Position numbers and translations under genes: made by a program
The notes under the pieces: generated by a model
The model's database searches: none
Told to the model about the DNA's origin: nothing
Seen by the model: only the letters and a program-made list of their open reading frames with translations
Assembly (NCBI RefSeq): GCF_006352065.1
Contig: NZ_CP040915.1
Location: forward strand, 2,790,001 to 2,854,000
Length of the DNA stretch: 64,000 bases
Source: Georgenia yuyongxinii
Lineage (GTDB): Bacteria > Actinomycetota > Actinomycetes > Actinomycetales > Actinomycetaceae
Direction of reading: 5' to 3'
Shown: piece after piece, positions 18,786-42,653 of the stretch
Layout of the letters: every line of letters begins with the position of its first letter
How positions within the stretch are numbered: position 1 is the first letter of the stretch

Positions 18786-18849
18786 CGCGAGATGTCATCT
18801 TCTCCGTGAGACGTCATTGACATGTCGCGGAGGACTTGACATCTCACCG
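18786..18849. repeat. four-unit palindromic intergenic repeat, CGCGAGATGTCA family
   Basis: Two direct 12-13-bp units (18786-18797 CGCGAGATGTCA; 18805-18816 CGTGAGACGTCA) are followed by two inverted units (18818-18830 TGACATGTCGCGG; 18837-18849 TGACATCTCACCG). Within each arm the units start 19 bases apart, separated by similar six-to-seven-base spacers, so the element is one large imperfect palindrome around a single T at 18817. It lies between the response regulator and the ABC transporter. A half copy is at 33072-33103. It does not look like a simple terminator because the units are conserved in sequence and spacing. Confidence 0.8.
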
Positions 18850-41321: not shown

Positions 41322-41991
41322 CTTCTTCGCTTCCTAGGGACGCGCTCGGCCGGGCTCAGGTTCCGGGACGGGGATGATGCCCGCGACGGCGGACAGGTGA
41401 CGGCCTGGTCTGCCGGCGCGCGCCGTGCTGGCCGTACGCGCCGGCCGTGACGCCTTCGCGGTGGGCCACACCGTCGCCACGGGCGCTCGCCGTGCGGTGC
41501 GCCGGATCGTCGTGGCCACCGGTCCTCCCTGGTCGATGACACCTCAAGCCAACTCCTGGCTGCCGGGCCGCCGCAAGGGACGAACGGCCCCGCGAAGGAC
41601 CCGGACGGACCCCGCTCCTCTCGGCCGCACGGAGGCCGAGGACCTCGTCCGCTGGACCCAGACCTGCCTCGAGACACGCTGGCGGATGCAGGACCTCGCC
41701 GGTATGCCACCGACGGCGTTAACACGCCGGGTGGTGGCGGTCTGGCCCTGGGTCTTGTAGTCCTCGCAGCACGGTCCCGGCCCGGAGCACCGGCAGCCGG
41801 CCGCACGTCGTGCACCTGGTCGTCGCCGCGGCGGTGGTCGCGCTCGAGAGCTCCCTGATCCGGCTGACGGTTCCGCTGGGTGATGAGTGGTTCTGGACGG
41901 CCGCGCTGGAGGCCACTGGGGGTGGTGACGACACCACTGTGGCCGATCGACCTCTCAGGTCGGTGCCAGACCGGCCTCCCAGCGTGTTCCA
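41322..41991. other. long region without a supported gene
   Basis: About 670 bases between the DUF4389 gene and a palindromic repeat. Several reading frames of 60-110 codons are open on both strands, but none shows codon usage, a start region or motifs of a known family. One plus-strand frame (41425-41760) contains EDLVRWTQTCLETRW, and a minus-strand frame over the same stretch reads CCEDYKTQGQTATTRRV. Either could be a remnant of a decayed gene, since gene debris lies immediately downstream. Confidence 0.4.
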
Positions 41992-42070
41992 CGCGTCGAG
42001 ACCTGCACTTTCCTACCGAGACCTGCCGTTCCGCAGGCAGGTGTCGGCGTAACTTGCAGGTCTCGACGCG
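41992..42070. repeat. four-unit palindromic intergenic repeat, CGAGACCTGC family
   Basis: Outer arms are a perfect 16-bp inverted repeat, CGCGTCGAGACCTGCA (41992-42007) and its complement (42055-42070). Inside is a second unit pair, ACCGAGACCTGCC (42015-42027) and GGCAGGTGTCGG (42036-42047). The two units of the left arm start 20 bases apart, as do those of the right arm approximately. The layout (two direct, two inverted units, about two helical turns apart) is the same as that of the unrelated-looking element at 18786-18849. Homology to a P-type ATPase begins only ~12 bases after its right end. Confidence 0.8.
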
Positions 42071-42078
42071 GTAGGGCG

Positions 42079-42653
42079 CCTCGCCGGGTGGTCGCCCTCT
42101 CGGACCTGGTCCGTGCCGAGACGGCCACGACGCTTGCGGCGCTGCGTCGCGCCGGGGTGCGGTCGACGCTCATGCTCACCGGCGACACCGTCCCCACCGC
42201 TCGGCACATCGCCGCCCAGGTGGGTATCGACGACGTGCGCGCCGTCCTGCTTCGCCAGGACAAGGTGGCGGTACGGGAGGTGAAAGGCGGCCTGGGGCAG
42301 CGGGAAGAACGTTCGACCGTCCGGTGATGATGGTGGGCGACGGCGTCAACGACGCACCTGTGCTCGCCGTCGCCGACATCGGCGTGGCGATGGGTGCCAA
42401 GGGCTCGACGGCCGCGTCCGAGTCCGCCGACGTCGTCAAAATGCTCGACGACCTCTTCCGCACCGTGCGGGCCGTGCGGATCTGCCGGCACACGATGCGG
42501 GTGGCCTGGCAGGCGATCGGCCTCGGCGTCGGCCTGTCCCTCGCGCTCATGGTCCTCGCCGGGTTCGGGCTGCTGCCGGCGATCGTGGGCGCCTGGCTGC
42601 AGGAGGCGGTCGACCGGCAGCCCGCACTGTCCGACGGGCTGGGTCGCGGGTGA
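42079..42653 (+). pseudogene. C-terminal fragment of a heavy-metal P-type ATPase, frameshifted
   Basis: Two frames together match the end of the intact ATPase at 59399-61306. The first (42079 to ~42290) reads VALSDLVRAETATTLAALRRAGVRSTLMLTGD...ARHIAAQVGIDDVR; the second (42315-42653) reads RPVMMVGDGVNDAPVLAVADIGVAMG...MRVAWQAIGLGVGL...LPAIVGAWLQEAVD. The membrane core, TPCP and DKTGT motifs are all missing. A frameshift with about ten extra residues lies near 42290-42315, and the C-terminus diverges after LQEAVD. The fragment therefore cannot work. It abuts the palindromic repeat on its 5' side. Confidence 0.88.

Follow-up and report, generated by a model that had tools for sequence, protein, structure and literature searches.

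In the window, the whole 64-kb stretch of Georgenia yuyongxinii DNA that was analysed (73% GC, from a genome that is one contig of 4.17 Mb), four short units form a 79-bp palindrome, which raises the question of what kind of element this is and how it stands to another repeat family in the same stretch. A preliminary description had claimed two direct units 20 bases apart followed by two inverted units, with perfect 16-bp outer arms, and inspection bears this out (Table 1): the arms are 100% complementary and separated by 47 nt, the left pair of units is stepped by 20 bp and the inverted pair by 19 bp, and the inner inverted unit carries one mismatch. We refer to this element and its relatives in the genome as family 2. 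What had been called the first family is taken to be the element listed in Table 1 as family 1.

The four-unit layout occurs at one place in the 64-kb window. Markov-1 resampling of the window (60 rounds, 3.84 Mb in all), scanned in the same way, gave no layouts and two pairs of 16-bp arms, counted at a gap of 30-100 bp; arms of 16 bp alone are thus weak evidence, whereas the layout is not. Real sequence from congeners yielded 2 places in genome G007 (400 kb scanned) and 3 in genome G003 (340 kb scanned), and the layout was absent from 592 kb of named actinobacterial loci, where 11505 arm pairs, probably runs of N, were left out of the results. The single CGAGACCTGC unit, with at most one mismatch, shows no excess in the window (14 occurrences versus 13.15 expected). 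As RNA, the window copy is predicted to fold at −56.7 kcal/mol on the + strand (z −9.6) and at −55.5 kcal/mol on the − strand (z −8.9). Reading of the sequence beside this hairpin revealed no T-run on either strand of the window copy, and Rfam gave 0 matches in the window above the gathering score.

Table 1. Positions of the repeat elements and adjoining features. Plain numbers are positions in the window; numbers preceded by an L label are positions in stretches of G302, a genome of another genus.
Feature	Position	Strand	Basis or remark
Family-2 element, four-unit palindrome, 79 bp	41992..42070	+	direct reading, repeat search
Left outer arm, 16 nt	41992..42007	+	fully complementary to right outer arm
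Unit 1, CGAGACCTGC	41997..42006	+	
Unit 2, CGAGACCTGC	42017..42026	+	20 bp past unit 1
Unit 3, inverted	42037..42046	-	1 mismatch (G.G facing unit 2)
Unit 4, inverted, exact	42056..42065	-	19 bp past unit 3
Right outer arm	42055..42070	-	
Left flank common to the copy at genome 1886174	41960..41991	+	
Frameshifted remnant directly right of the element	42087..42653	+	border by eye
Family-1 element, GAGATGTCA / GAGACGTCA then inverted TGACATGTC / TGACATCTC	18788..18846	+	
G302 unit family, direct pairs at 19 bp with inverted mates	L329:13990-14110		
G302 unit family, direct pairs at 19 bp with inverted mates	L330:7080-7210		
G302 unit family, direct pairs at 19 bp with inverted mates	L331:1795-1905		
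G302 unit family, direct pairs at 19 bp with inverted mates	L333:8920-9030		
G302 unit family, direct pairs at 19 bp with inverted mates	L333:18830-18930		

Family-2 copies in the genome

Further copies, on which the claim of a repeat family depended, do exist. BLAST located 14 family-2 places in the genome, 86-96% identical to the consensus query, and a covariance model (R1) built from the alignment of these copies (A1) recovered the same 14 places. Mean column identity among them is 81% (n = 14). All 14 copies are intergenic, whereas the same gene finder, a home-made GC3-based tool rather than a published program, assigns about 85% of the window to coding sequence. Their neighbouring genes are convergent in five cases, divergent in five and codirectional in four. 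A gene-end role for family 2 was considered and is unsupported, since more than a third of the copies (5/14) are thus divergently flanked and 2/14 have a facing stop no more than 45 nt away.

The left arm contains two units at a 20-bp step in every copy. With up to two mismatches allowed per unit, the right arm contains two units in 10 copies, three in 2, and one or four in a single copy each, the step being 19 bp throughout; with up to three mismatches, the counts become two units in nine copies, three in four and four in one. Because right-arm unit counts vary, four units are the commonest form of the element and not a rule. The outer helix is paired in 94% of cells across the 14 copies, and an inner G/C position is paired in three copies and unpaired in the other eleven. 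Covariation among the copies does not exceed that of shuffled alignments, in a test whose power is low because most pairs are invariant.

The ends of the family-2 element are blurred, in that four of the 14 copies lie on a longer repeat (roughly 400-570 bp) and two pairs of copies have one flank in common: about 30 bp on the left in two copies, one of them the window copy, and about 30 bp on the right in the two members of the other-side pair. The longer repeat (stretches L031, L032, L038 and L041 of this genome) lies mostly outside predicted genes and also holds a second inverted repeat, AACGAAATGGCC...GGCCATTTCGTT.

One copy, at genome position 1886174, occupies the gap between two genes that we take, from their protein sequences, to be tdk and sepH. 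All eight congeners keep this gene pair and none of the eight has the element there, so that a gain in the G. yuyongxinii lineage is the simplest reading; the copy was probably inserted in this lineage, judging from the comparison of this one locus, where divergence of the gap has made the insertion borders unreadable. Target duplication is not above control, with repeated words of at least 5 nt near the ends of 5/14 copies versus 111/300 random placements, a test that rests on the uncertain element borders. BLAST searches for family 2 in the eight congeners found none except a partial match in G005 (E 2.5e-5); judged by eye, this match is flanked by convergent gene ends, and its units are related but changed. 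The window element has no match in plasmid and phage collections at the sensitivity used, and a scan of viral contigs with a two-unit pattern matched four stretches.

A co-occurring transposase had been suggested as something to look for. None was found in a search covering the rve and Y1 families, and within the same search the element was not recognised as the end of a known insertion sequence. The Y1_Tnp transposase (PF01797) is absent from all nine genomes of the genus, this one included, in a search whose control was positive in 5 of 14 well-known genomes. The genome has three places with an rve domain, one of them above the cut-off; stretches of 3.2 kb around them contain no full unit, and one holds the 8-mer CGAGACCT. 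Ends of IS481 or IS3 type were tried as an identity for the element on this basis, and their exclusion is partial. A RAYT/REPIN system was rejected, there being no Y1 transposase in the nine genomes and no common tag: GTAG is present in 1/14 copies (with CTAC in the same copy), CGTC in 3/14 and GACG in 3/14.

Family 1 and related designs in other genera

The family-1 element of the window sits 32 nt past the predicted end of a gene for a LuxR-type response regulator. The genome contains 94 matches to the pattern GAGATGTCA-N9..13-GAGANGTCA, with tandem arrays counted more than once, and none to its reversed control. In 58 stretches, which represent part of the family-1 sites, we found 80 half elements, 58 of them single and 22 in palindromes. 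After three single halves (two overlapping a predicted gene and one with no neighbour in its stretch) and three palindromic halves (gene overlap) were dropped, 46 of 55 single halves lay behind a gene on the same strand, 37 of the 55 started 6-38 nt past the stop codon of that gene, and 14 of the 55 had a convergent stop, in the opposite direction, within 60 nt. Of the 19 palindromic halves, 12 have a same-strand stop upstream and 8 have a convergent stop downstream, in each case no more than 60 nt away. These counts make family 1 chiefly a directional element positioned just past stop codons. Its hairpin is uncertain, as RNA folding of two real halves gave z values of −0.5 and −2.8. The halves were also considered as transposon-like ends that frame cargo, an idea that was dropped because most of them simply trail the stop codons of adjacent genes. 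In appearance, family 1 is a directional 3′-end element that lacks a T-run.

The family-1 pattern occurs in four of the 200 genomes examined from the taxonomic family: this genome, G003 (10 matches), G002 (2) and G069 (one isolated match). G003 and G002 retain the GAGANGTCA box and mostly also the 19-bp step; the spacers often differ and the direct arrays are longer. A search for orthology between 12 loci of G003 and G002 and 80 loci of this genome yielded one pair aligned over at least 150 bp (L232-L081), with the elements themselves uncovered by the alignment.

The core CGAGA is indeed common to the two window families, as had been proposed. The accompanying proposal that they have the same architecture applies roughly to the two window copies (steps of 20 and 19 bp versus 19 and 19 bp) and fails for most of the family-1 copies examined. 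Family 1 resembles family 2 in its CGA[G/C]A core, its 19-bp step and the occurrence of palindromic copies, but most of its copies are direct pairs that run with the gene and start 6-38 nt past stops. Since this stop-codon bias is missing in family 2, core and step are common to the two families and placement is not, and the families are not equivalent.

At E ≤0.01, R1 has matches in 6 of the 149 genomes searched from the order, its own and genomes of other families among them. Outside this genome there are five rows at four places in G302, three matches in G289, and one each in G284, G036 and G271, the last three being weaker than those in G302 and G289. The model gave two weak matches, with E values of 0.016 and 0.98, in the 592 kb of the 80 named actinobacterial stretches L090-L169. 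In G302 and G289 the elements consist of CGASACCCC units, with S standing for G or C (A in one case), stepped by 19 bp and accompanied by inverted mates; the plasmid and phage collections gave no match to a G302 element. For a test of covariation we used ten elements of these two genomes, seven from R1 places and three from a pattern scan, with two more degenerate G302 places (L329:15139 and L331:17263) excluded. In this set, which is biased to pairing because R1 has base pairs and the pattern scan requires complementary outer arms, 92.4% of cells are paired, and 28 cells are changed on both sides versus a shuffle mean of 12.4, with none of 500 shuffles reaching 28. Slid versions of the alignment reached at most 7 such cells. 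Hairpin pairing thus appears to be kept in other genera and less so in family 2, where covariation is at the shuffle level and the inner G/C position is mostly unpaired. When the elements of G284, G036 and G271 are added, the neighbouring genes of the 13 elements are convergent in eight cases, codirectional in five and divergent in none, and a facing stop lies within 45 nt of 10/13.

The 19-bp step can also be examined with no reference to particular units, by counting pairs of exact 8-mers at lags of 12-30. We did so in 26.2 kb of intergenic DNA from contig 17 of G302, a genome picked because R1 matched it, after excluding the 20-kb piece with the known match. Lag 19 gave 19 pairs, where the other lags had a median of 2 and never more than 7, and pairs with an inverted mate numbered 15 rows from nine places at lag 19 versus at most one elsewhere. 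The units concerned are unrelated to one another (TGAGAAACC, GCCCCCTC, CGAGACTT, CGACACCC, CGCAGGAG, and arrays of GGCTCAGGG). By eye, YGAG stands at or near the start of many units. G003 has 43 pairs at lag 19 versus at most 9 at other lags; pairs with an inverted mate number 5 at lag 19 versus 6 at lag 16, and since inverted mates are not enriched at lag 19, the arrays of this genome are mostly direct. A peak at lag 19 is likewise present in a G289 stretch, selected near matches, and is lacking in G007, G006, G271, G034, G025, the 80 named actinobacterial stretches and a small sample of G005. An unselected 24.5-kb intergenic sample of the G. yuyongxinii genome has no peak at lag 19 (5 pairs); at lag 20 it has 12 pairs, nine of them from one tandem array. 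With lag-19 peaks confined to a few of the genomes sampled, the 19-bp-step design is strong in these few and is not general.

Several repeats were noted along with these counts. The G302 unit families listed in Table 1 mostly adjoin gene ends. The G. yuyongxinii genome has a tandem array of period 20 bp (L390:519-627), which lies in a stretch with no predicted gene and is unrelated to the units described here. G007 has a different repeat built on GAGCGATCCCT (L272:1830-2000 and L274:15780-15920), and its further over-represented intergenic words include CCCTGGTAACC and CGTGAGGGC.

Possible origin and role

Several known kinds of element invite comparison with family 2. MITEs are non-coding, carry terminal inverted repeats, generate target duplications and have a partner insertion sequence with the same ends. 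Family 2 is like them in being non-coding, in its terminal inverted repeats (16 bp in the window copy) and in its insertion at an empty site (one locus), but has no target duplication beyond control and no partner insertion sequence among the rve and Y1 families searched. The likeness to REP, BIME and REPIN elements with RAYT proteins is that all are short, intergenic, palindromic, interspersed and lineage-specific, with direct and inverted units; family 2 differs in having neither a GTAG/CGTC tag nor a Y1 transposase in the nine genomes of the genus, and in usually having four units at a step of 19-20 bp, whereas REPs, as defined in PMC3733652, are single hairpins of 20-40 nt. Intrinsic terminators and the hairpin clusters past stop codons treated in PMC8355165 are similar in their strong hairpin, and the relatives of family 2 in other genera lie mainly at gene ends, but the window copy has no T-run and family 2 has no gene-end bias. 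Within the partial coverage of the literature considered, including sections of PMC3733652, PMC2267715 and PMC8355165, there is no description of this element. Overall, family 2 appears to belong to a loose class of repeats that form hairpins.

Our preferred reading, about which we are evenly divided between belief and doubt, is that family 2 is a mobile intergenic palindrome, similar to REPs and MITEs and related by design to 3′-end hairpins with a 19-bp step. Its 14 non-coding copies would have spread by insertion into intergenic DNA in the lineage of this species, moved or copied in trans by a putative enzyme that reads CGA[G/C]ACC units. The family would belong to a wider class in the order, characterised by two direct units about 19 bp apart with inverted mates. 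The ancestral role of this class was probably that of a transcript-end hairpin, possibly a bidirectional one, given that the elements of other genera lie mainly at 3′ gene ends and keep their pairing. Family 2 itself may have drifted away from gene ends, and most of its copies probably have little effect where they lie.

It is unlikely, in our judgement, that family 2 is instead a working bidirectional transcription terminator or 3′-end RNA barrier, in which the transcript of either strand would fold into a two-storey hairpin. The predicted stability of the window copy on both strands (−56.7 and −55.5 kcal/mol) would suit such a function, as would the location of 5/14 copies between convergent genes and the covarying relatives found mainly at gene ends in other genera; however, as many copies (5/14) are divergently placed, only 2/14 have a facing stop 45 nt away or less, the hairpin of the window copy lacks a T-run on either strand, and the inner G/C pair position is unpaired in 11/14. 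We give still less credence to the proposal that the units are DNA-binding boxes, read as dimers or arrays with a spacing of about 19-20 bp by a protein that would regulate genes or organise the chromosome. Such a spacing corresponds to nearly two helical turns and would present the boxes on one face of the DNA. In favour of this proposal, unit identity and the fixed 19-20 bp step recur with differing spacers and in pure direct arrays, and the congeners G003 and G002 retain the GAGANGTCA box of family 1 but often have other spacers. Nevertheless, family-2 sites number just 14, the tdk-sepH copy was probably gained in this lineage, and what covaries in G302 and G289 is pairing. The least probable of these explanations, and in our view a distinctly remote one, is that family 2 is a MITE in which the ends of a classical DDE insertion sequence, each bearing two transposase boxes, have been fused; IS481-type ends are the lead for such an arrangement. 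The 16-bp inverted ends and internal direct boxes of the window copy resemble such a structure, and there was an intergenic insertion at the one locus tested, but the three rve-domain places have no full unit in their 3.2-kb stretches, with one 8-mer in one of them, and target duplications do not go beyond control.

The preliminary description had also offered a choice between related proteins with different specificities and one diversified element family. The latter fits in that elements of this design, composed of different units, turn up in further genera, giving several unit families of one design, although the two window families are not equivalent. For the former, the search of the rve and Y1 families yielded no protein of matching specificity. 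A bolder version, which we consider doubtful, is that the conserved thing is the design and not the sequence, so that in some Actinomycetales genomes unrelated units are arranged as two direct copies 19 bp apart with inverted mates. If this were true, there would be a recognition system that makes or reads 19-bp-step palindromes at gene ends, consisting either of a protein family whose specificity is half constant and half changing, or of one copying enzyme that builds palindromes. If the design is real across genera, it would represent a class of non-coding elements in high-GC Gram-positives that are neither RAYT-driven REPs nor classical terminators, and the fixed step together with the inverted mates would serve as a sequence handle for finding the protein behind it. 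Family 1, in turn, offers a directly testable directional element past stop codons at dozens of sites.

Surroundings of the window copy

The window copy and the copy at genome position 1886174 are 87% identical over 119 bp, the element included, and the next best copy resembles the window copy only from about position 41983 onward. Directly to the right of the element lies a frameshifted remnant (Table 1), which by eye appears to resemble the C-terminal half of a P-type ATPase; Pfam has no family for its 42324-42653 portion. The start of this remnant is a possible border of a recombination or insertion event. A DUF4389 protein, whose best named match (51%) is from Georgenia, is also a neighbour of the window element.
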